Origin: Fibrobacterota bacterium
GTDB lineage: Bacteria; Fibrobacterota; Chitinivibrionia; Chitinivibrionales; FEN-1185
DNA: 37,000 nucleotides
Assembly (NCBI GenBank): GCA_003165595.1
Contig: PLWQ01000023.1
Coordinates: 1 to 37,000 of the forward strand
Direction: 5' to 3'
Shown here: positions 12,550 to 34,225 of the stretch, in pieces
Numbering within the stretch: the first letter of the stretch is position 1
How the letters are laid out: each line of letters begins with the position of its first letter
Notes under the pieces: generated by a model
Database searches by the model: none
Told to the model about the DNA's origin: nothing
What the model saw: only the letters and a program-made list of their open reading frames with translations
Program-made: the position numbers and the translations under genes

Positions 12550-15426
12550 ATGTGGAATAGCATGGAAAATGGAAACTGTTGCCATTTGTCACTCAAGGGT
12601 TTGGGGTCCCGGATGCCGCCTCATCTGGCAATGTTCTTTATTGCCGGTTTCCTGCTGTCGACAGGCTGCGCGCCCAACAAACCGGACGCGACCGGGCAAC
12701 TTCATCCCGCTGCCGGCATGAAAAAGATAACCGCGGCCGGCAAATCTTTTTTGCAGGGAGCTGCCGATTCCAATGCATCGGGAGACGAGAAACCGGTGAT
12801 GACCGCCTCCTTTTCCTATGATTACTGGATCGATACGGTCGAGGTTACGCAGCTGGAATATGCCGCCTGCACGGGGAAGCGCCCGGTAAAAGATTCCAGC
12901 GCCTTCGGCGTGGGTGATGACCATCCTGTCTATTATGTCAGCTGGTTCGACGCGATTTTGTTTTGCAATGCAAGAAGCAGGAAAGAGAACCTCGACACTG
13001 TATACAGCTATTTCGGATCTCCGCTTGAACAAAACGGCAGCGTGTACGATCTTGCAGGCCTGCAAATCCATTATGACCGGGATGGGTATCGGCTTCCCAC
13101 AGAATCGGAATGGGAATATGCCGCGCGCGAAGGCACTTCAGTGATCCCTTTCCCCGGACTTTCCGACAGTTCACAGGCGGATCAGTATGCCTGGTATTTT
13201 GCAAACTCACTCGGCTCCACCCACCCGGTCGCAACGCGTGAAAAGAACAGTTTCGGGTTGTACGACATGGCGGGCAACGTGTACGAATGGGCAAATGACT
13301 GGCGGGGCCTCTATTCCGTGTCAAGTATCACCAATTCCATCGGCGCTATGCAGCCCAACAGCGGCAATGAACGGGTAGTCAAGGGTGGTTCGTTCGAGCA
13401 TGGTTTTCTGAACCTCCGATTCTCCCGCCGATCGTCCACCTATGGAACGCCCCAGTCGAGCACCGCCGAATACATCGGGTTTCGGTGCGCACGGGGGCCC
13501 ATTGCACACCCGTCGTTCATAACCACCGACACGGCAACCGTAACCACCTATCCGGTGAGCGTCGTCGTCACCTCACTCCAGTCGATGCTGCCGGCGTCAC
13601 TTGCCAAAGCGGTGTTTGTGAATGTCAACAACGATGTCCGGACGCTGTGCGCCGTCGATTTTGCAAGGTCCTTTCCGGTCGTCGTGGAATACCGGGACTG
13701 CAAAACGGTCTTCACGCCGGCTATTTCCCCCAACGGGAAATTCGTCGCGTTCGGCACCCGCAATTGGGGCTTTGCAGGCGCGGCAACCGTGTACCTGCGA
13801 AGTCTCGATTCCCTTGGGTCGCCGCTTGTCAAAATCCCAGCCGACAGCGCCTATGACCCGCGGTTCTGGGTTGACCCGGCCTCCAAGGACACCTTTCTGA
13901 TCTATACCAATTCGTCAATAGACAATGCTTCGCCGTTGTGGGCCGTGTCACAAACGTATATGATAAAGGTGTCCGGCGCAAGTCCGGTCGGCATCCCGCA
14001 AGTGCTGGTGGCGAGCGGCAGCTTCCATGACGGCAGATCGGCCAACGGACAATTTATTGTAACCGGTTTCACTAAACTTTTAATGCGTGACCTGAACACC
14101 AACACCGACGCAAACCTTTTCACATACCCCAACAACGGTAAGGAGGCAAACGGTTCAACGCAGGTCTGCAACACGTCAATGTCCCCTGATTCCGGCAATA
14201 ACGGCGTGTGCCTGTTCTTGGATTTCGGCTGCCCATCGGTGAGCACGCTCACCGGGGAACCGTATGGCGTCCATGCCTACCTTTTTACCGCACGCTATTC
14301 CGGCGGGGTCACGTCGTGGTATAAATGTCCGGCAGGAGACATTGCGTGGGATTACCCCGAATGGTCGAATGTTGCACCCTTGGCAATCGCAAGCGGCATG
14401 AACGGCGCCAGCGAGGCGCACGCCGTGTACCTGATCGATCTGGAAAATAATACGACGCTCAAGATCCTGGAAGGCGTTGACCTCGAAGAGCCGTTCTTAT
14501 GGGTCAATCCCTCACTGTATCTGTCCGGGAACAAAATATCCCTGGACAGCCTTGGCGGCTACAACAACCCGTCGATCAGTTATACGCAGCCCTTCTTTGC
14601 GGCGCGGATGCTGCCGTTCTGGCAGGAATTCAGGAATATGAAAGTCGTCTTCACCGGCAGTTCTCAAACCGCATTCGGCGTGGATCCCGGGAGCTTCACC
14701 ATTCCGGGAGTGTATAACATGGCAATTTCCGGGGGGGATTTTCCGGTTGAAACGTCCATGATAACGGGGTATCTGCTCAATCACTGCGATTCTCTGCAGC
14801 TCGTGGGCATGGATTTGATTCCTGCGCTCCTGTTCGCGCAGAATGTTGCATTTGTGCCCGATTGGGATGCTGGTATTATGTCAAGTAAAGGCTACAACTA
14901 CGATAAGAACCATCAGTTCTGGAGCCAGGGGCTTCCCCTGAGCTTCTTAAGCCTCATGAATCAGATTCCCGTTCCCGCTATTCCCGATCTCGATACCCTT
15001 GGACTGTACCGACATACGTGCCAGGGATGGGGAGGCGCCACACCCGATCATGGAGCCTACCCCACTTGGACGACGGAAGATTCCTTGTACAAATACAACC
15101 TCACGCTCATCACAAATTTTGCACGAACTCTGGCGCAGCGAGGGGTTCATTTCCTTCTTTACCTCACTCCCGTGAGCCCGTACTACAAGGCCTTTGACGA
15201 ATTTGAAAATGGCGGACCCAGTTCGGAAACTGCAGCGATGATCTGCAATGACCTGGTTGCTCTGCAGGACAGTGTCCCCGGATACTTCCACTTTTACGAC
15301 GCCGACAAATTGGGCAATCACGACTACACCGACGCCGATGCCTATGATGCGAACCACCTTTGTACCGTTGGGGCGCAAAAGTTCAGCGCCAGGCTGGATT
15401 CCGTGGTGAAGACGATCCTCAAGTAG
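12550..15426 (+). CDS. Large lipoprotein, FGE-like + beta-propeller + SGNH-like (TIGR02171-type)
   Basis: This protein of up to 958 residues fits in length and plan the Fibrobacter succinogenes paralogous family TIGR02171 (~900 residues, often lipoproteins, function unknown). A lipobox L-L-S-T-G-C40 follows a hydrophobic segment; the true start may be Met5 or Met22 because the GGGGAG abuts the first ATG. Residues about 50-315 are a formylglycine-generating-enzyme-like domain (W-I-D-T-V-E-V-T, Y-R-L-P-T-E-S-E-W-E-Y-A-A-R, Y-D-M-A-G-N-V-Y-E-W, G-G-S-F, G-F-R-C). About 330-690 looks like a TolB-type propeller (I-S-P-N-G-K-F-V-A-F). About 698-958 looks SGNH-hydrolase-like, with T-G-S704-S near its start and a D933-A-N-H936 pair at its end. 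Neither enzymatic activity is established. Outer-membrane or periplasmic location is inferred. Confidence 0.85.
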   Translation: MWNSMENGNCCHLSLKGLGSRMPPHLAMFFIAGFLLSTGCAPNKPDATGQLHPAAGMKKITAAGKSFLQGAADSNASGDEKPVMTASFSYDYWIDTVEVTQLEYAACTGKRPVKDSSAFGVGDDHPVYYVSWFDAILFCNARSRKENLDTVYSYFGSPLEQNGSVYDLAGLQIHYDRDGYRLPTESEWEYAAREGTSVIPFPGLSDSSQADQYAWYFANSLGSTHPVATREKNSFGLYDMAGNVYEWANDWRGLYSVSSITNSIGAMQPNSGNERVVKGGSFEHGFLNLRFSRRSSTYGTPQSSTAEYIGFRCARGPIAHPSFITTDTATVTTYPVSVVVTSLQSMLPASLAKAVFVNVNNDVRTLCAVDFARSFPVVVEYRDCKTVFTPAISPNGKFVAFGTRNWGFAGAATVYLRSLDSLGSPLVKIPADSAYDPRFWVDPASKDTFLIYTNSSIDNASPLWAVSQTYMIKVSGASPVGIPQVLVASGSFHDGRSANGQFIVTGFTKLLMRDLNTNTDANLFTYPNNGKEANGSTQVCNTSMSPDSGNNGVCLFLDFGCPSVSTLTGEPYGVHAYLFTARYSGGVTSWYKCPAGDIAWDYPEWSNVAPLAIASGMNGASEAHAVYLIDLENNTTLKILEGVDLEEPFLWVNPSLYLSGNKISLDSLGGYNNPSISYTQPFFAARMLPFWQEFRNMKVVFTGSSQTAFGVDPGSFTIPGVYNMAISGGDFPVETSMITGYLLNHCDSLQLVGMDLIPALLFAQNVAFVPDWDAGIMSSKGYNYDKNHQFWSQGLPLSFLSLMNQIPVPAIPDLDTLGLYRHTCQGWGGATPDHGAYPTWTTEDSLYKYNLTLITNFARTLAQRGVHFLLYLTPVSPYYKAFDEFENGGPSSETAAMICNDLVALQDSVPGYFHFYDADKLGNHDYTDADAYDANHLCTVGAQKFSARLDSVVKTILK

Positions 15427-19768: not shown

Positions 19769-22700
19769 TTACCAGGTCCTGACGCACCGAACAGACAATC
19801 CATTAATTTTCTGATCATTTTGACTTGTTGAAAAAGCAGCATCAGATGAGGTAATCACGTAGCAACTCGCAAACCGTCCCAGGTCGGTGGAGCCCCACCA
19901 CTTCGATACAGCTTTCCAATTTTGGAACCCCCAAAAATCTTCAAGCGGGGTGGCACCAAATTCGCCAGCACCGACTGCCGTAAATCCGCTTGAATTTGTT
20001 GCTCCTTGGTTTGGATCAAACCAATAAGCATTACCGGTCGCTTTCATCTTTCCGCCGGCGCTATCGCCCAAAAAAGTGGCAAGCGCGTTCCAATCGTCAT
20101 CATTCGCAACGCGCCACCCATCAGGCGCAAGTTTCCCCGTATTTACAACATCCCATATATACAGCGCGCCATAAGGATCTTTATTGGCAATATTGCTGTT
20201 CACCCAGCAGCAATTTAGTCCATACCCCCATTGACTGAAGCTTGTATCATTTATCAAAGCCGTACCGTCATTCAACTTGGTTGTCTTTAAATTCTGCACC
20301 ATCCATACTTGATTTCCGATTTTAACTTCAGTATACACGTTCCCATCAATATCTTTGATTTGCCAATAAGCATAAACGGTCATTCCCTGGTTGATTTGTG
20401 TTGTTCCCGTGATGGGTGACCCGCCGCCATTGGGTTGGGTGTACCATCCTCCGAAGATATAGCTTGTTTTCGTCGGCGCCGGAGGTAATGTACCGAGTGT
20501 TATCGTTGGGGTGGTGATCGTTATCGACTGTGGATCGGGCTGTGCCGTCGCACCTTGGCCGTCAAATGTAACCGTCGCCGTCCATTTCGCGTACATGTTC
20601 ACATTTGCGGTAATAGTAAACTGGGTTCCAGGTATGTAATCGATTCCTGTTCCGGCCGCGTTCGTGTTCCACTTTGTTGCAAACGTCCATCCCGTTCTCG
20701 TCAGTGGATTTGTTCCCGTATTGTCAAGTACCGTTACCGTCTCCCCGCTCGCATACAATTTGCTGTCTACAGGCGGCAATCCTAGGGTGCTGTTATTCCC
20801 GAAATACGTCACCGTGTAAACCGCCATCCATTTCGCATATAGCGTAACGTTCGAATTGCCTATTGAAAACGTAGCTGCAGCGGCGTAGGAAGTACCGGAG
20901 CCGTCCGCAGCAGTGTTCCATCCGGCAAAGGTGAACCCGGTTTTTGCCAGGTTCCCGGTGTTCGCAATAACGGTTACGGTGGCACCCTGCAAATACGCGT
21001 TTTGGTCGGTTGGCGCTGTGCCGCTGGTATTGTTGTTCCCGTTGTAGGTAACAGTGTAGGTCGGATTCTGCGTCCATTTGGCGTAGAGGATAACGTTCGC
21101 AGCACCCATTGTAAACGTGCCTGCTGCTGCATAAGATGTACCAGAACCGTCTGCAGCAGTGTTCCAACCGGCAAAGGTATAGCCGGTGCGAACAAGGTTT
21201 CCCGTGTTGGCCTTAACCGTAACGCTTGCGCCTTGTTCGTACATATTGCCGTCTACCGGCACTGCGCCACCGGTACTGTTGTTTCCGCTATAGATTACCG
21301 TGTAGGTCGGGTTCTGGGTCCATACTGCATACAAGGTTACATTAGCTGCGCCGATATTGAATGTTTCTCCGCCCGCATGTGGTGTTCCGCTGCCGTCGGC
21401 TGCCGTGTTCCAGCCTGCAAAGGTATAGCCGGTTTTTGCCAAATTGCCCGTGTTGGACTTGACCGTTACGCTTGCGCCTTGCTGATAGGCATTTGCATCT
21501 GTCGGCGCTGTGCCGCTGGTATTGGTATTGCCGTTGTAGGTGACGGTAAAGGTAGGATTTTGGGTCCAGACTGCATAGAGCGTGGTATTGGAACTCCCCA
21601 TTGTCAAATTTGACCCGGCGGCATACGTTGTACCCGAACCATCAGCCGCGGTATTCCAACCGGCAAAGGTGTACCCGGTGCGAGCAAGATTTCCCGTGTT
21701 TGCCTTGACAGTTACGCTTGCACCTTGCTGGTATGCATTTGCATCTGTCGGCGCAGCACCGCTGGTGTTGCTGTTTCCGCTGTAGGTTACCGTATAGGTC
21801 GGATTCTGCGTCCAGACTGCATACAGGGTAACGTTTGCAGTACCGATATTAAAGGACGTTCCCGCTGAATACGAAGCGCCGGTGCCGTCTGCAGCAGCGT
21901 TCCATCCTGCAAACGTGTATCCGGTGCGAGCAAGGTTTCCGGTGTTGGCCTTGACATTCACACTTGCACCCTGCTCGTACGCGTTTGCATCGCTTGGCAC
22001 GGTTCCGGCAGTGCTGCCGTTGCCGTTGTAGGTGACGGTATAGGTGGCATTCTGCGTCCACACGGCGAAAAGCGTATCGTTCGCAGTTGCGATCTTAAAT
22101 GTTTCGCCACCGGCATAGGTAGTGCCTTTGCCGTCGGCAGAAGTATTCCACCCGGCAAAAGTAAAGCTGGTCTTTGTAAGACTTCCGGTGTTTGCCAATA
22201 CCGTTACGTTTGCGCTTTGTTCATAAGCATTGGAGTCTGTCGGAGCGGTTCCGCCGGTATTTCCATTCCCGCTGTAGACGACCGAGTACGTTGGATTTTG
22301 CGTCCATTTTGCGTAAAGCGTTGCATTGGTTGCGCCCATAACAAACGTTTCTCCGCCGGCATATGATGCGCCGGTACCGTTTGCTGCAGTGTTCCATCCT
22401 GCAAACGTATACCCGGTTCTAACCAGTGCGCCTACATTTGCCTTAACGGTTACGCTTGCTCCTAGCGGATAATACGTCGGGTCAACAGGCGCTTTGCCGC
22501 CAGTGCTGCCATTGCCGTCATAGGTGATAGTGGACGGCCTTGCATATATAACTATTTTGGCAGTAAGGCTGTAATTCGGTTCACCCTGAATAGCGGCGGA
22601 CGCCGTTACCGTTCTTGTACCTGCGGAATTAAGAGTTATGGAAAACCAGGCAGTGTCTGTCCAGGTGCTTGGGGCAAGAAAGGTGAACGTTGTGTCTGTA

Positions 22701-22954
22701 TCGCCTACGCCTTTTGCAATTGAAACCGTAACCGAGTTGATGTACTTGGAAAGATAAGGGGCCAGGCCGATTTTGACTACCTTGCCAACCGTGTCGGAAA
22801 GGGAATCTGCATTTCTAATGCTCTTGGAATTTTCCATCATCATGGATATCGACGCGTTTGATGCTGTGAAGGGGCTGGGCGTGTCTGAACAGGAAAACAC
22901 AAAAGGCAGAAGAAATGCCGGAAGAACGAACAGCCACCACAATTTTTTGCGCAT
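19769..22954 (-). CDS. Lipoprotein with InlB-type repeats and C-terminal Fibrobacter paralogous domain
   Basis: Starting at the ATG at 22954, preceded by ACGGAGAAAATAGT, gives 1061 residues. A lipoprotein signal ends at V-F-S-C22. After an Ig-like stretch come eight ~81-residue copies and one divergent copy of the Listeria-Bacteroides repeat (InlB_B type: Y-T-V-T-Y-N-G-N, G-Y-T-F-A-G-W-N-T-A-A-D-G, V-T-L-Y-A-x-W-T). The last ~180 residues match the TIGR02145 'major paralogous domain' of Fibrobacter (V-K-I-G-N-Q-V-W-M-V-Q-N-L-K, Y-G-A-L-Y-I-W, G-W-R-V-A-N-D-D-D-W, S-V-R-C-V-R). The repeats likely form a beta-grasp stalk displaying that domain at the surface; binding target unknown. Middle repeats are similar in DNA, favouring copy-number change. 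Confidence 0.88.
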   Translation of the reverse strand: MRKKLWWLFVLPAFLLPFVFSCSDTPSPFTASNASISMMMENSKSIRNADSLSDTVGKVVKIGLAPYLSKYINSVTVSIAKGVGDTDTTFTFLAPSTWTDTAWFSITLNSAGTRTVTASAAIQGEPNYSLTAKIVIYARPSTITYDGNGSTGGKAPVDPTYYPLGASVTVKANVGALVRTGYTFAGWNTAANGTGASYAGGETFVMGATNATLYAKWTQNPTYSVVYSGNGNTGGTAPTDSNAYEQSANVTVLANTGSLTKTSFTFAGWNTSADGKGTTYAGGETFKIATANDTLFAVWTQNATYTVTYNGNGSTAGTVPSDANAYEQGASVNVKANTGNLARTGYTFAGWNAAADGTGASYSAGTSFNIGTANVTLYAVWTQNPTYTVTYSGNSNTSGAAPTDANAYQQGASVTVKANTGNLARTGYTFAGWNTAADGSGTTYAAGSNLTMGSSNTTLYAVWTQNPTFTVTYNGNTNTSGTAPTDANAYQQGASVTVKSNTGNLAKTGYTFAGWNTAADGSGTPHAGGETFNIGAANVTLYAVWTQNPTYTVIYSGNNSTGGAVPVDGNMYEQGASVTVKANTGNLVRTGYTFAGWNTAADGSGTSYAAAGTFTMGAANVILYAKWTQNPTYTVTYNGNNNTSGTAPTDQNAYLQGATVTVIANTGNLAKTGFTFAGWNTAADGSGTSYAAAATFSIGNSNVTLYAKWMAVYTVTYFGNNSTLGLPPVDSKLYASGETVTVLDNTGTNPLTRTGWTFATKWNTNAAGTGIDYIPGTQFTITANVNMYAKWTATVTFDGQGATAQPDPQSITITTPTITLGTLPPAPTKTSYIFGGWYTQPNGGGSPITGTTQINQGMTVYAYWQIKDIDGNVYTEVKIGNQVWMVQNLKTTKLNDGTALINDTSFSQWGYGLNCCWVNSNIANKDPYGALYIWDVVNTGKLAPDGWRVANDDDWNALATFLGDSAGGKMKATGNAYWFDPNQGATNSSGFTAVGAGEFGATPLEDFWGFQNWKAVSKWWGSTDLGRFASCYVITSSDAAFSTSQNDQKINGLSVRCVRTW

Positions 22955-23022
22955 ACTATTTTCTCCGTAAAGAAGTGGATTTTGACACAACACAATATAA
23001 TATTGGGTTATGGGGTCCGGCC

Positions 23023-26427: not shown

Positions 26428-27474
26428 TTATCGCCGCACCACAATCCGCTGCGCCACCACCCCAAACGCGCCTCGCACATTCACAAAATATGCACCCGGC
26501 GCAAGCTGTTCCGTTGGAACCGTCACAAATCGCGCAAAGCCTTTCCGGCAAAGGACCGCCTTGCCATTTACGGTTGCGACTTCCACCGAATAGGCCTGCT
26601 CGTCCGGAAGCTCAACCGAAAGCCGTGTTCCGCGAAGTGTGGCCGCCGCAGCAGGCGCGACCGCGCGCGGCGCAGGAGGGGCAGCGGCGGTAAGCGAAGG
26701 GTCCCAGTGGTAAACCCGGACGTAATCGACGATCAGGCTTTCGGGAAAGACGGTGGTGTTATCGCTGGCGCCGTCGAAATTGCCGCCCACGGCAAGATTA
26801 AAGATGAACCAGAAGTTATTGTCAAATGGCAGGTTCGGGTCACTCGCCTTGCGCAGGGTCCCGAAGTTCACACTGTCGCAAAACCAGCGTATCGAATCGG
26901 TGCTCCATTCGGCGGCATAAATGTGAAAACTGTCGTGAACGTTCCCGCTGGGTAATGTGTACTGGTTAAAGACGTCGAAACCCGGAAAGTGGTACGATCC
27001 GGACGTCCAGTTCGGCAGTCGTCCCCGTCCTTCCATTATGTCAAGTTCCCCGCATCCCGGCCATCCAACCGAGCTGAAATTGGAACCGAGCATCCAAAAC
27101 GCGGGCCACATTCCCTGGGTAATGGGAAGACGCATGCGCGCCTCCATGCGTCCATACACAAAGTTCCTTTTGTTCTCCGTATTGAGACGGCCGGAGGTGA
27201 TCCCGCCGTTATTCCGTGCAACGATGATCAGGCAGCCGTTCTTGACGAATATGTTGGAACTTGCCTGATCGTGTCCGCTTGTGTAATGCTCCTGTTCGCC
27301 ATTGTCCGGATTGTTGGATGGATCCACCGTCCAGTTACTCTCGTTGAGCGCGGTGCTGTCGAATTCGTCTGACCAGAACAGCTTCCATCCGCCCGCCATT
27401 GTATTTGTCAATATCACCGTTACAAGGAGCGCCGTGGTGCGCAAGGCAGTTCTCAAAGATGTCGGAAGATTCAT
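26428..27474 (-). CDS. Secreted GH16 beta-glucanase (laminarinase-like)
   Basis: GH16 enzymes of this type cleave beta-1,3 or mixed-linkage beta-glucans by a retaining mechanism. From the ATG at 27474 the protein has 348 residues: signal peptide (1-27), then the beta-jelly-roll catalytic domain to about 260. The catalytic signature G-E143-L-D145-I-M-E148-G is intact (nucleophile, auxiliary Asp, acid/base), preceded by W-P-A-F-W-M-L-G and F-V-Y-G-R-M-E-A-R-M. An A/P-rich linker leads to a C-terminal sorting-type tail (G-A-Y-F-V-N-V ... I-V-V-R-R). An upstream start at 27492 or 27498 is possible but weaker. The dispersed repeat begins just after the stop. Confidence 0.92.
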   Translation of the reverse strand: MNLPTSLRTALRTTALLVTVILTNTMAGGWKLFWSDEFDSTALNESNWTVDPSNNPDNGEQEHYTSGHDQASSNIFVKNGCLIIVARNNGGITSGRLNTENKRNFVYGRMEARMRLPITQGMWPAFWMLGSNFSSVGWPGCGELDIMEGRGRLPNWTSGSYHFPGFDVFNQYTLPSGNVHDSFHIYAAEWSTDSIRWFCDSVNFGTLRKASDPNLPFDNNFWFIFNLAVGGNFDGASDNTTVFPESLIVDYVRVYHWDPSLTAAAPPAPRAVAPAAAATLRGTRLSVELPDEQAYSVEVATVNGKAVLCRKGFARFVTVPTEQLAPGAYFVNVRGAFGVVAQRIVVRR

Positions 27475-27760
27475 TTCACCCGCCTTTTCCATTTTCAAAA
27501 GGGGTTAATCGCTTAGATTGGCAAGCAATGCTGCATCCTTGTAATTATAAGGATAAATGCCGCATTTTGCCCACATATCAGATAGATGACGCAAACTTTC
27601 TCAGATTCGCCGTCTTGCTAATCATTTCACAACCAATTTCACCAAAAGCGATAATAACCGAAAACCGTGGCCCTCAAAATACTATTTTTTCCGATCTGCG
27701 CCGGCTGAGACGGACCCGCCGGCAAACATGCGACGCACTCTTTAACAAAAGGGAAGAACA

Positions 27761-30265
27761 GTGAACATTTCGTACTCCCCTGAGGTTCGCCGGGAACTTG
27801 AACTGAGCTACCGCAGTTTGAACCTTTTTCGGCCCGCGCCCGCTTCCCGCTACGAAGAAGGGGCGATTTTGACATACGACATGGAGCCCGTTGCCGCGCA
27901 GGGCGCCCAAAAAAAATGCCGTGCCGAGGTGAGAGTGGAGCGTTTCGTGGGCGGCGGTTTTGCGGGTCAGGTGTATAAGGTGCGCGTCGAGAACCTGGGA
28001 CCGCAGGGACTGAAGGGCGTGGCCGTGGGCGGCGTGTACGCCTTGAAAATTCTCATACCGCCCTCGACATTCTCAAAATGGTTTCGCGATGCACTCTATG
28101 CGATCGGGTTCCAGGGAGCCTTTCAGCTCCAATGCAATCCGGCCGCAGCCCGAAGCGGCGCCCTGTGGCAGAAATTCATCCGCCGGGCGGCCCGCCTGAG
28201 GTTCGGCGACGAATCCTTTGTCAACGACGTCCATGGGACCTTTGCCGACAAAACGCTCGGCAGCATGGGAGAGATGAGCGATTGGATCGCCGGCCGCACC
28301 TGGCGGCTGGAGATTGACGAACGCATGGATCTCCTTGGCAGGTGGATGCGGGGCAAAAGGGTTGACGAACCGAAACTCGGATCGCCGGAGTTTCGCGGGA
28401 AGAAGCGGTTCATGGCCGATTTTGTCTCTCTATTGCACGGCATCGGCGCGCATGAATTTGCGCGGCAGTACGAATGGAGCACATGGAAGAGCCAGCCCAA
28501 CTGCCTCAAACGCCTCGAAACCGACAGCGATCCGGCCACCGGGCTTGTCGCGGTCGATTTCAGGTCGGGCCTGGTGCTCCTGCCCTTTTTGCCCATGAGC
28601 CCCGGCGACGTGGTGCTGATTCTTAAAGGGCTTGCCCGCGGAAGCATTGTCCAGTTCGACCGCGGCGACGTGAAGAAGCTCGAATCGTTCGTGGCATCCC
28701 ACCGGGAACAGTTCCGGGACATGGACGGCATGCTTGACGAACTCAAAGCCATGGAGGCAATCTATCGCGATTCGGTTGCGGATATCACGCACAACCACAT
28801 CCGCCTTCTTTTTAGCCCCAGCCTCTGGAAAACTATGCAAGACAGCGCAGTCACCGGGTGGAGCGTTAGGGGCTTGGTTGACACCGCAGGCGAGCAGGCG
28901 CTTCGAAAGAACAGCTTCAAACCCCTGCTCTTTAGCCTGGCCGGATGCGTTCCGGTTGCGGGGAAAATTGTCCGCCGCCTGTGGGCCCACCAGGGGTGGC
29001 GCCGCCACTACTGCCGGCTGGTGACAAACGGGAAATACCTTGGCGACGCGGTCAGGGGAAAGATGATTGAAAAGGCGGTCACATGGCACAGGGCGGGCCG
29101 TATTGATGAGCGAGAAACCAGGGCCGTTGCGTCGTCCTTCGGCCGTTTCACCCTCCATGCCTGCCTGTCGATCCTGCCTGCAGGTATCCACACATTCCTC
29201 ACCAATTGGGAATTCGCCAAGGACCGCGTCGACTACCTCTTTGTCCGCCCGTTTCGGCTCTTATTCAACAGCGCCGCGCGTGAGCAATGGCTTCTGGACA
29301 TGGTGCGTGAGGGCCGCGAGAAGCGGCAGATCAGCCAAGGCGATGCCGTGACGATCACGTCGCAGGTTCATGAGCCTTTCATTCAAAAGTACCTCAGGAG
29401 CCTTGCCGTCCACCTCTGTCTGATGCCCACCACCCATGTGGTGGCGATCGCCTTTGCCATCTGGTATGTCGTCACACACCCCGGCATGCCCCATGCGCAG
29501 GCCTGGGCGGTCGGCGCGGGCATCGTCGCGCTTTTCCAGGTGATCCCCATTTCCCCGGGATCGATCGCGCGGGGCCTGTACGTGCTCTATCTTGTCATCA
29601 GGGAGCGCAACATCAAGGACTACAACATCGCGCTCGTACTTGCCTTTTTCAAATATGTCGGGTACCTGGCTTTTCCCATTCAGATGGCATATCGTTACCC
29701 GGTTCTTGCCCGTTTTATGGCAGTGCATTGGGCCACGAGTGCGGTGCACATCGTGCCGGTGTTCGGCGAGTCCGGAGCGCTCTTGGAACATGGGGTGTTC
29801 GGTTTCTTTTACAACTGGCCATTGACAATTCGAAGCCGCCTTGTCCGCCGCCAGCAGCGGCGCGCTGCGCTGCCCGCCCGCCGCTGGCATATCGTCGCAT
29901 GGGCGATCGTCGGTGCGGCGGCGATGGGCGCAACAGAGTATCTTTTTCAGAACAAATTCCACGCTCTGCCCACGCTCAAGGACATGGCATTGCCGATGGT
30001 TCTTGTGCCATTCTTCACGGGCGCGGCTGTCACTTTGGGGTGCAGCGGTGCTTCGCTTCAGAAGCGCATTGTGTCGGCGGCGATCGCAGGCGTACTCATG
30101 GGAATTCTCGCGACAGGAACTTCCGTCTGCCTGGGCACGGTGCAGACAGGGGTCAATCACCTGCTTGTCGGTTTTATGTGGCGCGTATTCCTTTTCGCCC
30201 TCTTTGCCGCGATCAGCGCCATGTTGACGGAAGTATTCCTTCCGGACCGCGACGGCGTGCTGTGA
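27761..30265 (+). CDS. Kinase-like domain fused to multi-pass membrane region, unknown family
   Basis: A GTG start after AAAGGGAAGAA gives 834 residues. The N-terminal ~350 residues resemble a protein-kinase fold: glycine-rich loop V63-G-G-G-F-A-G-Q-V-Y-K, a VAIK-like lysine K96 (Y-A-L-K-I-L), and V-A-V-D-F-R-S-G near 263-270 at the DFG position. The catalytic-loop region (L-L-H-G-I-G-A-H-E-F, then S-T-W-K-S-Q-P-N) lacks a clear HRD aspartate, so it may be inactive or atypical. From about 450 to 834 there are roughly seven to ten hydrophobic segments, with P-I-S-P-G-S and F-G-E-S-G-A-L-L-E-H between them. I do not recognise the family. A membrane-sensing or lipid/glycan-related role would be speculation. 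It stands alone, 102 bp before parE. Confidence 0.6.
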   Translation: MNISYSPEVRRELELSYRSLNLFRPAPASRYEEGAILTYDMEPVAAQGAQKKCRAEVRVERFVGGGFAGQVYKVRVENLGPQGLKGVAVGGVYALKILIPPSTFSKWFRDALYAIGFQGAFQLQCNPAAARSGALWQKFIRRAARLRFGDESFVNDVHGTFADKTLGSMGEMSDWIAGRTWRLEIDERMDLLGRWMRGKRVDEPKLGSPEFRGKKRFMADFVSLLHGIGAHEFARQYEWSTWKSQPNCLKRLETDSDPATGLVAVDFRSGLVLLPFLPMSPGDVVLILKGLARGSIVQFDRGDVKKLESFVASHREQFRDMDGMLDELKAMEAIYRDSVADITHNHIRLLFSPSLWKTMQDSAVTGWSVRGLVDTAGEQALRKNSFKPLLFSLAGCVPVAGKIVRRLWAHQGWRRHYCRLVTNGKYLGDAVRGKMIEKAVTWHRAGRIDERETRAVASSFGRFTLHACLSILPAGIHTFLTNWEFAKDRVDYLFVRPFRLLFNSAAREQWLLDMVREGREKRQISQGDAVTITSQVHEPFIQKYLRSLAVHLCLMPTTHVVAIAFAIWYVVTHPGMPHAQAWAVGAGIVALFQVIPISPGSIARGLYVLYLVIRERNIKDYNIALVLAFFKYVGYLAFPIQMAYRYPVLARFMAVHWATSAVHIVPVFGESGALLEHGVFGFFYNWPLTIRSRLVRRQQRRAALPARRWHIVAWAIVGAAAMGATEYLFQNKFHALPTLKDMALPMVLVPFFTGAAVTLGCSGASLQKRIVSAAIAGVLMGILATGTSVCLGTVQTGVNHLLVGFMWRVFLFALFAAISAMLTEVFLPDRDGVL

Positions 30266-30367: not shown

Positions 30368-32173
30368 ATGTCCGATACACGACTCTCCATCCCCATTTAC
30401 GACGAAAAGACAATCAAGACCCTCAGTTCGCTCGAGCATATCCGTTTACGTCCAGGAATGTATATCGGACGCCTGGGCGACGGAACCAACCCCGACGACG
30501 GTATCTACATCCTGATCAAAGAAGTGATCGACAACGCGATTGACGAATTCATCATGGGGTACGGCAAGAAGATCGACATTGCCATCGAAGAGGGCATCGT
30601 TTCGGTCCGCGATTACGGCCGCGGGATTCCCCTGGGCAAGGTGATCGAATGCGTGTCGGTCATCAATACCGGCGCAAAATACAACGACGACGTATTCCAG
30701 TTCAGCGTCGGGCTCAACGGCGTGGGCACCAAGGCGGTCAACGGCATGTCGTCGCATTTCCGCGTCGCGTCGTTTCGCGACGGGGAGTTCTTCGAGGCGA
30801 CATTCTCAAAAGGAAAGCAGCTTTCAAAGCGCAAGGGAAACGTGAAGGGCGAGCACAACGGAACGCTTATCGAGTTCACGCCCGATGCGGAGCTGTTCGG
30901 CGAATTCGCGTTCAACTACGAATACGTGGAACGCCGGTTGTGGAACTACGCCTGCCTCAACACGGGCCTCAAGCTTCTCTTCAACAAGCAGACGTTCGAG
31001 TCGAAGAACGGCCTGCTGGATCTGCTCTCCAACGAAGTGGGCGAGGCAACGGTGTATCCCATCGGGCATTACAAGACCAAGTTCCTCGAATTCTCGTTTA
31101 CCCACACCGCAAGCTACGGCGAGACATACTTCTCGTTCGTGAACGGCCAGCTCACGAGTGACGGCGGCACGCACCTCTCGGCGTTCCGCGAGGGCATTCT
31201 CAAGGGGATCAACGAATTCTACAAGAAAGACTATTCGGGCCTCGACGTGCGCGAAGGCATGTCGGGCGCCATAGCGGTAAAGCTCAAGGCGCCTGTGTTT
31301 GAGAGCCAGACCAAGAACAAGCTCGGCAACACCGAGATCCGCGGCTGGGTCATCTCCGAAGTCAAGTCGGGCGTTGTTGATTATCTCCACAAGAACCCGG
31401 AGAGTGCCAAGGCGCTGGAGAACAAGATCGTTCAGAACGAGCACCTGCGCAAGGAACTCAGTGCGGTCAAGAAAGAAGCCAAGGAAGCGGCCCGGCGCAT
31501 TGAGATAAAAATCCCGTGCCTCAGGGACTGCAAGTGTCACCTGGGCGACGCAAAGCTCGGCGGGGATTCGACCATCTTCCTTACCGAAGGGCTGTCGGCA
31601 GCCGGATCGATCGTCTCGGCGCGCAACGTGCAGACCCAGGCGATATTCACGCTCAGGGGCAAGCCGGAAAACGTGTTCTCGCGCAACCGCGCCGCCATCT
31701 ATCAGAACGAAGAATTGTACAACCTGATGATGGCGCTCGGCATCGAGGAGACCATCGACACGCTCCGGTACAACCGTATCGTGATCGCCACCGACGCCGA
31801 CGTGGACGGGTTCCACATCCGCTACCTGCTCATGACGTTTTTCCTCACCTATTTCGAAGACCTGGTTTTGTCGAACCATCTTTACATACTGGAAACTCCG
31901 CTGTTTCGCGTGCGCAACGGCAAAGAAACGCGCTACTGCTACAGCGAAAAGGAACGTGATGCGGCGGTGAAGGATCTCCGGGGCGCGGAAGTGACGCGGT
32001 TCAAGGGGCTCGGCGAAATATCGCCGAGCGAATTCGGCCAGTTTATCGGCGAGAAGATCCGGCTGGTGGAAGTGAACGTCAAGTCCATCAAGAATGTCCC
32101 GGAGACGCTCGAGTTCTACATGGGCAAGAACACGCCGGAGCGCAAAGATTTCATCATGGAGAACTTGGTGTAA
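30368..32173 (+). CDS. parE: DNA topoisomerase IV subunit B (ParE, Bacteroidota-type)
   Basis: ParE supplies the ATPase and part of the cleavage core of topoisomerase IV, which decatenates daughter chromosomes. The 601-residue protein has the GHKL ATPase motifs E52-V-I-D-N56, D-Y-G-R-G-I-P and G-L-N-G-V-G-T-K-A-V-N, the transducer, and a TOPRIM domain with D476-A-D478-V-D480 and G-L-G-E. The opening H-I-R-L-R-P-G-M-Y-I-G-R-L-G-D-G is typical of Bacteroidota ParE. The first TOPRIM motif reads L-T-E407-G-L409-S where E-G-D-S is usual. It lies upstream of parC, separated by 141 bp that holds a strong palindrome. A GyrB assignment is less likely given length and neighbour. Confidence 0.9.
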   Translation: MSDTRLSIPIYDEKTIKTLSSLEHIRLRPGMYIGRLGDGTNPDDGIYILIKEVIDNAIDEFIMGYGKKIDIAIEEGIVSVRDYGRGIPLGKVIECVSVINTGAKYNDDVFQFSVGLNGVGTKAVNGMSSHFRVASFRDGEFFEATFSKGKQLSKRKGNVKGEHNGTLIEFTPDAELFGEFAFNYEYVERRLWNYACLNTGLKLLFNKQTFESKNGLLDLLSNEVGEATVYPIGHYKTKFLEFSFTHTASYGETYFSFVNGQLTSDGGTHLSAFREGILKGINEFYKKDYSGLDVREGMSGAIAVKLKAPVFESQTKNKLGNTEIRGWVISEVKSGVVDYLHKNPESAKALENKIVQNEHLRKELSAVKKEAKEAARRIEIKIPCLRDCKCHLGDAKLGGDSTIFLTEGLSAAGSIVSARNVQTQAIFTLRGKPENVFSRNRAAIYQNEELYNLMMALGIEETIDTLRYNRIVIATDADVDGFHIRYLLMTFFLTYFEDLVLSNHLYILETPLFRVRNGKETRYCYSEKERDAAVKDLRGAEVTRFKGLGEISPSEFGQFIGEKIRLVEVNVKSIKNVPETLEFYMGKNTPERKDFIMENLV

Positions 32174-32215: not shown

Positions 32216-32273
32216 ACCTCACCCCCTTTCTCCCCCTCTCCTTGACAAGGAGAGGGGGTCAGGGGGGTGAGGT
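32216..32273 (+). repeat. Large GC-rich palindrome between parE and parC
   Basis: An outer arm pair (ACCTCACCCCCT with AGGGGGGTGAGGT) encloses a perfect 12-bp stem, CCCCCTCTCCTT with AAGGAGAGGGGG, around a GAC loop. It is related to the palindrome at 4319-4341. As RNA it would form a very stable hairpin between the two genes and could attenuate parC or stabilise the parE message. There is no downstream T tract. Confidence 0.75.
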
Positions 32274-32314
32274 GGAAACCGTCTCGAAAAACAATTTCTT
32301 CGAGGTGCCCTAAT

Positions 32315-34225
32315 ATGGCCTTTGTTCCTGCCCTTTACAAAAACTACTTCATCGAGTATGCCAGCTACGTCATAAAGGATCGCGCGATTCCCGATATCGA
32401 AGACGGTCTCAAACCCGTGCAGCGCCGCATTCTCCATACGCTGTACGAAATGGACGACGGCAAATTTCACAAGGTCGCCAATGCCGTGGGCCAGTGCATG
32501 AAGTACCACCCGCACGGCGACGCGTCAATTTTCGCCGCGCTCGTGGGGCTGGCGAACAAGGACCTGTTTATAGACAAACAGGGAAACTTCGGCAACGCAA
32601 TCACCGGCGACGAAGCATCGGCGATGCGCTACATCGAATGCCGGCTCACGCCGCTTGCCCGGGAGACGCTCTTCAACGCCGAGGTCACCGAATTCGTCGA
32701 TTCCTACGACGGCCGCAACAAGGAGCCCGTGGTTCTGCCGGCCAAGGTGCCCGTGCTCCTGGCGCAGGGCGCGGAAGGCATTGCGGTGGGCATGGCCACC
32801 AAGATTCTTCCGCACAACTTTATAGAGCTGCTCCAGGCCCAAATAGCCATTCTCAACAAGGACCCGTTCACGCTCAGACCCGATTTCCCCTCGGGCGGCA
32901 TGCTTGACATGTCGGAATACAACGACGGCAACGGCAAGGTTCGCATCCGCGCGCGCCTCGACACCAAGGACGACAAGCGGATCGTGGTGCGCGAGATCCC
33001 GTTCGGCACCACCACCGAAAGCCTCATCGCCAGCGTTGAGGCGGCCGCGCGCAAGAACAAGATCAAGATCGCGGGCATTTCCGATTTCACCTCCGACCGG
33101 GTGGAAATCGAGATAACCCTCGCGCGCGGGGTGCACACGCAGGACACGGTCGACGCGCTGTACGCCTTTACCGACTGCGAAGTGTCGACCACGGTGAACA
33201 TCGTGGTGATCAAGGACAACAAACCGGTCACCATGAGCGTGTCCGACGTGCTCAAGCACAATACCGACCGTACCGTGGAGCTGCTGCGGCGGGAGCTCAA
33301 GATCGAGGACGGCCACCTGCGCGACAGGCTCCACGCCAAGACGCTGGAGCAGATCTTCATCGAGAACCGCGTGTACAAGCGGATCGAAGACAAGAAGACC
33401 CAGGAGGGCGTGAATAAGGCGGTAATTGACGGACTGGAACCCTTCAAGAAAGACATCAAGCGCGAGGTGACCGCCGAAGACGTGGAGACCCTGCTCAAGA
33501 TCCCCATCCGCCGTATTTCGGCATACGACATCAACAAGGCGCGGCACGAAATGGACGAGATCGCCACCCGCCTCAAGGAGATCCGTCATTCGCTCGACAA
33601 CATCATCGATTACACCATCGGCTACCTGCAGGATCTCATTCTCAAGTACGGGAAGGACTATCCGCGACGCACCGAGGTGCTTTCCTTCGAGAAGGTTGAC
33701 GTGCGGGAAGTGGCGCAGCGCAACCTCAAACTCCGCTACGACCGCGACAACGGCTACCTCGGCTACGAGGTAAACGGCAGCGCGCTGTTCGACGTGTCGC
33801 TGTACGACCGTGTTCTCGTGATCCGCAAGAACGGAATGTATTCGGTTACCAACGTGCCCGATAAATTGTTCGTCGACAAGGGCATGCTGTACTGCGGGTT
33901 TATCGACAAAGACATGGTGTATTCCCTGGTGTACAAGAGCCCCGAGAATCAATACCCCTATGTGAAGCGATGCAAAATCGAGCAGTTCATTATGCAGAAG
34001 GCCTATTTGCTTGCGCCCGAGGGCGCCACGGTCCAGATGTTCACTACCGAGACCGACGGCGCGCTCGAGGTGGAGTACAAACCCCGGCCCTACCTGCGCG
34101 TGCTCGAAGAGAAATTCAACCTCGCAGATTACCTTGTCAAGGGCGTCAAGGCTCAGGGCGTGCGGCTTTCCAACAAGGAAGCCAGGACGGTGAAGTTCGT
34201 GCCAATGCTAAAGTTGACAAACTAA
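32315..34225 (+). CDS. parC: DNA topoisomerase IV subunit A (ParC, Bacteroidota-type)
   Basis: ParC carries the DNA-cleaving tyrosine of topoisomerase IV. The ATG at 32315 is preceded by GAGGTG and gives 636 residues; an in-frame upstream extension would run through the palindromic repeat and is rejected. Motifs include the QRR-like D-G-L-K-P-V-Q-R-R-I-L, the quinolone-determining segment Y-H-P-H-G-D-A-S-I-F, and the catalytic Y106 (A-M-R-Y-I-E-C-R-L-T). The C-terminal part is shorter than in GyrA and lacks an obvious GyrA box, which supports ParC. ParE and ParC are adjacent and likely co-transcribed. Confidence 0.9.
   Translation: MAFVPALYKNYFIEYASYVIKDRAIPDIEDGLKPVQRRILHTLYEMDDGKFHKVANAVGQCMKYHPHGDASIFAALVGLANKDLFIDKQGNFGNAITGDEASAMRYIECRLTPLARETLFNAEVTEFVDSYDGRNKEPVVLPAKVPVLLAQGAEGIAVGMATKILPHNFIELLQAQIAILNKDPFTLRPDFPSGGMLDMSEYNDGNGKVRIRARLDTKDDKRIVVREIPFGTTTESLIASVEAAARKNKIKIAGISDFTSDRVEIEITLARGVHTQDTVDALYAFTDCEVSTTVNIVVIKDNKPVTMSVSDVLKHNTDRTVELLRRELKIEDGHLRDRLHAKTLEQIFIENRVYKRIEDKKTQEGVNKAVIDGLEPFKKDIKREVTAEDVETLLKIPIRRISAYDINKARHEMDEIATRLKEIRHSLDNIIDYTIGYLQDLILKYGKDYPRRTEVLSFEKVDVREVAQRNLKLRYDRDNGYLGYEVNGSALFDVSLYDRVLVIRKNGMYSVTNVPDKLFVDKGMLYCGFIDKDMVYSLVYKSPENQYPYVKRCKIEQFIMQKAYLLAPEGATVQMFTTETDGALEVEYKPRPYLRVLEEKFNLADYLVKGVKAQGVRLSNKEARTVKFVPMLKLTN

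Follow-up and report, generated by a model that had tools for sequence, protein, structure and literature searches.

A kinase-like, multi-pass membrane protein family shared by many uncultured bacterial phyla

The window, a 37,000-nucleotide stretch from a Fibrobacterota bacterium (assembly GCA_003165595.1, contig PLWQ01000023.1, positions 1 to 37,000), contains an open reading frame (27761..30265, forward strand) that raises the question of what a kinase-like domain joined to a membrane protein might do when a key catalytic residue seems to be missing. A sequence-only reading of this DNA had pointed to a Gly-rich loop, a YALK lysine and a DF-R element, to the lack of a clear HRD aspartate and to a long polytopic membrane part with no known family, and had suggested a membrane-bound kinase or pseudokinase. 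It had set structure prediction and the conservation of K96 and of the aspartate near residue 266 as the tests that could refute it, with family-wide gene neighbourhoods as a further check.

A constrained gene and its relatives

The gene encodes 834 aa, has a GTG start directly preceded by a GGGAAG stretch resembling a ribosome-binding site, and ends in a stop codon within 27761..30265. Most of the differences between it and its 80%-identical orthologue from the same genus lie at third codon positions, with dN of 0.126 versus dS of 0.694 (dN/dS about 0.18), and the ORF is thus a real, constrained gene that is under purifying selection. A 121-aa ORF just upstream (27399-27764) was rejected as spurious, as it overlaps both the GGGAAG stretch and the GH16 gene. 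Consistent with the absence of a known family proposed earlier, the 834-aa protein matched no family in Pfam (E ≤ 10) or NCBIfam (E ≤ 0.1), and had no usable match in PADLOC and no match beyond chance in sequence searches of the PDB. A PHROGs holin match (E 0.23) is at chance level, and an isochorismatase-like PDB match (E 0.01–0.2), which spans just 28–36 residues, was likewise dismissed as chance.

The gene nonetheless has many relatives. Species genomes scanned for one peptide pattern yielded 121 loci, of which we kept 80, spanning Phycisphaerae, Desulfobacterales, Chitinivibrionales, Cloacimonadota, Aminicenantes, SAR324, Armatimonadota, KSB1 and others. The family, which has no name in any database searched, occurs in many uncultured bacterial phyla, Planctomycetota, Desulfobacterota, Fibrobacterota, Cloacimonadota and Aminicenantes among them; a literature search for the kinase-like plus membrane architecture in Phycisphaerae found nothing. 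Of 61 related genomes, 11 gave a match in a protein search, and profile searches located the gene in 12 of 168 genomes of the window's own phylum (the named relatives being Fibrobacterota), 10 of 246 from the phylum of a Sedimentisphaerales (Planctomycetota) locus, two of 198 from that of a Desulfobacteraceae locus, four of 199 from that of an Aminicenantes locus (one of the four being a partial, very divergent match) and one of 201 from that of an Anaerolineales locus. Since nearly all of the records are metagenome bins, single odd taxa (e.g. Chloroflexota) could be misbinned.

As a rule there is one copy per genome, and identity to the window protein is mostly 50–60% across family members. 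The Fibrobacterota members, including that of the window, group together in the tree with strong support, and the tree as a whole is clustered by phylum, though not cleanly. These sequence data are consistent with mostly vertical descent, combined with loss and some transfer; a plasmid search found no relative on any plasmid.

A kinase-like half and a membrane half

AlphaFold2 already produced a kinase topology from only 11 input sequences, and protein kinases were its fold matches in the PDB; deepening the alignment to 82 sequences gave a model with a mean pLDDT of 90.2 and a pTM of 0.85. It places the kinase-like domain at about residues 20–310 (27818..28690), with an additional helix after beta-3 and before helix C. 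The top 50 Foldseek matches in the PDB are all kinase-like folds (GSK3, MPS1, Nek2, PknB, choline kinase), and protein kinases are again among the best matches in a viral structure library. The best PDB E-value is 1.7e-3, with probabilities up to 1.0 and target-normalised TM-scores of about 0.3, and it is these modest E-values (about 2e-3) and TM-scores that mark the fold as a distant version. As modelled, then, the N-terminal half is a genuine yet distant kinase fold. Profile–profile comparison with the ABC1 and Pkinase alignments gave local matches only, at the Gly loop and over the stretch from the Asn to the DFG position, too little to place the protein in either family.

The residues that would hold nucleotide and metal are, as judged from the alignments, intact. 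The glycine-rich loop GGGFAGQVY (residues 64–72, 27950..27976) is identical in all 87 homologues having the position, as is the beta-3 lysine K96 of YALK (28046..28048; 81 of 82 when distant members are included), and G64–66, K96, N247 and D266 show no exception among the 87–88 homologues with the respective position. Even with members at 22–42% identity included, the Gly loop, K96, N247, D266 and most of the catalytic-loop stretch are kept in 79–82 of 82 sequences. The hinge W175-G178-R179 (WxxGR, 28283..28297) is invariant in 82 of 82, as are both D266 and G270 of the DFG equivalent D266-F-R-S-G270 (28556..28570). The catalytic-loop equivalent QYEWSTWKSQPNCLK (residues 236–250, 28466..28510) belongs to a stretch, EFARQYEWxTxKSQPNxLK, that is largely invariant among 88 sequences; within it N247 is invariant and the W242 position variable. 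Position 242 is where the HRD aspartate would fall; of 82 sequences, 58 have C and 14 have W there, the remainder being mostly L, A or I, with no acidic residue among those listed in the 82-sequence alignment. Nor is there a conserved acidic residue at 127–148 across the family that could serve as the helix-C glutamate. The near-invariance of this pocket in eight or more phyla speaks for a retained ligand and not for decay.

Beyond the kinase-like domain, an all-helical linking region in the model (residues 311–540, 28691..29380) leads to a membrane core (residues 598–690, 29552..29830), and both the hydrophobic peaks between 386 and 827 and the helices in the model agree with the polytopic part described earlier. 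The core could not be assigned to a known family. It is the most conserved block of the whole protein, with a mean majority-residue fraction of 0.85 versus 0.82 for the kinase catalytic region, and S601, R604, G634, P639, Q641, P666, G669 and E676 are invariant in it. Lowest in conservation (0.45) is the C-terminal part (residues 706–834, 29876..30262) with its four predicted membrane helices; this tail is missing in the divergent members L111 and L112, and is dispensable. In two genomes the protein (L113, L114 and also L137, 8485-12147) instead runs on in frame to a length of about 1220 aa, through an unassigned C-terminal region of about 500 residues that has no Pfam match.

Both cores also occur in a highly divergent sister group (L130; L206, 799-2679; L207, 4353-6185), and are retained where identity has fallen to about 22%. 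The kinase part of this group keeps the Gly loop, a Lys and the DFG-type Asp, with WQ about eleven residues N-terminal of the catalytic Asn, while the membrane part keeps the Arg, Pro-x-Gln and Gly...Glu-His positions. That such divergent relatives keep both cores implies that their pairing is old. The divergent L130 gene adjoins an MMPL transporter gene resembling the hopanoid transporter HpnN.

With a kinase fold in the model and the named residues conserved (K96 in 81 and D266 in 82 of 82 sequences), the earlier view of a membrane-bound kinase or pseudokinase was right in substance; each motif it named is present, and the missing HRD aspartate holds family-wide. What the present analysis adds is that the helix-C glutamate is absent as well, that the membrane module outranks the kinase site in conservation, and that the family extends well beyond this genome.

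Gene neighbourhoods

Examined family-wide, the neighbours vary by lineage and are repeatedly envelope genes. In Planctomycetota the order is HIT-Dgt-PgpA, the family gene, two unknowns and then PurA-UppS-CdsA-PhoH. In 24 loci PgpA is the gene immediately before it on that strand, most often within 25 bases, and UppS and CdsA lie further downstream in loci of this PgpA type; the run may be one inherited housekeeping operon. The two unknowns (exemplified by L064, 4237-5028, and L066, 4924-5379; about 264 and 161 aa), which follow the gene directly in about 21 Planctomycetota loci, have no Pfam or NCBIfam match. In five Fibrobacterota loci an LpxH-like gene, below the NCBIfam cut-off, lies two genes away, and one is found near the family gene in two further Fibrobacterota genomes. 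A phosphomannomutase/phosphoglucomutase gene adjoins the family gene in five loci of Desulfobacterota and Aminicenantes, and in Cloacimonadota a divergent polysaccharide deacetylase gene lies upstream. One locus (L209) has a row encoding DAHP-synthase-family (KdsA-like), SIS-CBS (KdsD-like), HAD (KdsC-like), PMM and ManC proteins, in which the family gene comes last and overlaps ManC at ATGA.

In the window the gene has a GH16 gene and two topoisomerase genes as its neighbours, which are uninformative on function; none of these neighbours recurs in the same-genus relative. The first of the two topoisomerase genes (30368-32173), directly after the family gene, encodes a GyrB/ParE-like protein that reaches no curated cut-off; the product of the second (32267-34225) passes the cut-off for ParC of the PRK09631 type and completes a type II topoisomerase pair.

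Possible functions

How, then, might such a protein work? By the features tested, it is neither a classical kinase nor a UbiB. Like the Ser/Thr kinases (PF00069; PknB, GSK3, Nek2), it has a predicted bilobal fold with Gly-rich loop, beta-3 Lys, Asn and DFG-type Asp; unlike them, it lacks the HRD Asp, the helix-C Glu and any Pfam match, and its C-terminal half is very different. Our preferred reading, held tentatively and at somewhat less than an even chance, is that of an ATP-binding, non-canonical kinase-like protein of the inner membrane that works on or regulates envelope-lipid precursors. Such a single-copy protein would hold its kinase-like half in the cytoplasm, where it would bind ATP (or ADP) and magnesium. 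The working step would be either catalysis by the non-canonical loop (conserved E238, W239, K243, S244, Q245) or an ATP-driven conformational change, by which a lipid or lipid-linked sugar in the membrane module (R604, Q641, E676) could be acted on or gated, perhaps supplying precursors for envelope phospholipid or lipopolysaccharide. The kinase topology at a pLDDT of 90, with only kinase-like folds among the top 50 PDB matches, supports this proposal, and the envelope-lipid part of it draws on the PgpA, UppS/CdsA, LpxH-like, PMM/PGM and kds-PMM-ManC neighbours; that part is weakened by the lineage-specific nature of the neighbourhoods and by the unsupportive neighbours in the window and the same-genus relative.

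Pseudokinases have been defined by the absence, in a kinase fold, of one or more of three residues, the VAIK Lys, the HRD Asp and the DFG Asp (PMC4718504), and by that definition the family is of pseudokinase type through its missing HRD Asp, with the nucleotide-site residues kept. The protein could be catalytically dead, binding a nucleotide or a partner protein and so regulating its membrane module, as does the pseudokinase domain of MviN (MurJ) in Mycobacterium tuberculosis. The family-wide loss of both the HRD aspartate and the helix-C glutamate favours this, as does the precedent of bacterial membrane proteins with pseudokinase domains (PMC12599244); the MviN/MurJ fusion of Mycobacteriales (ActPs3 family) likewise couples a kinase-like domain to a polytopic envelope-biogenesis protein, but the kinase-like domain is N-terminal here and no sequence relation was detected. 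The MviN domain has all three motifs degraded (PMC12599244, table 1), whereas K, N and D are invariant here over many phyla, and we regard a dead pseudokinase as somewhat unlikely. Less probable still is a UbiB/COQ8-type ATPase (PF03109) that spends ATP moving or presenting membrane lipids. The two share a membrane-linked kinase-like fold, the GQV loop ending and, in the model, the additional helix that precedes helix C; a local alignment with ABC1 also covers the sequence around and beyond the DFG position (P about 1e-3 versus 0.33 for the control). UbiB proteins, however, are defined by an Ala-rich in place of a Gly-rich loop, KxGQ in an N-terminal extension and an ExD insert (PMC4718504), whereas the loop here is Gly-rich, KxGQ occurs in only one of 82 sequences, no acidic residue is conserved at 98–148, between beta-3 and helix C, in the 82-sequence alignment, the HRD aspartate is absent, the membrane part is far larger and ABC1 gives no Pfam match at E ≤ 10. 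We give a similarly small chance to a different transfer chemistry on the kinase fold: SelO (AMPylation) and SidJ (glutamylation) lack the catalytic motif and use ATP differently (PMC12599244), and a different, conserved sequence stands in for the catalytic loop here, but searches of Pfam, NCBIfam and the PDB give no sequence link to either.

A bolder version of the envelope-lipid reading, which we think unlikely though worth stating, would have the family be a new superfamily of ATP-using membrane enzymes, in which a kinase fold with a reinvented catalytic loop (EWxTxKSQPN in place of HRDxxxxN) would act jointly with a conserved intramembrane site (R604/Q641/E676) on an envelope lipid; it would span many uncultured phyla and include a still more divergent branch among Acidobacteriota/Aminicenantes. 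Given the kinase fold, the membrane module and the envelope-gene surroundings, the family would represent a new enzyme acting on lipids or else a new means of regulating envelope synthesis. It is under strong selection, and it provides a natural experiment on the capabilities of kinase folds that lack the catalytic aspartate.

Elsewhere in the window, a 958-aa protein (12550-15426) carries an FGE-sulfatase-like domain in its first third only, the rest being without Pfam match, and another gene (19769-22993) encodes a large, probable surface protein that has InlB-like repeats and a Fib_succ_major domain alongside nine Listeria-Bacteroides repeats.
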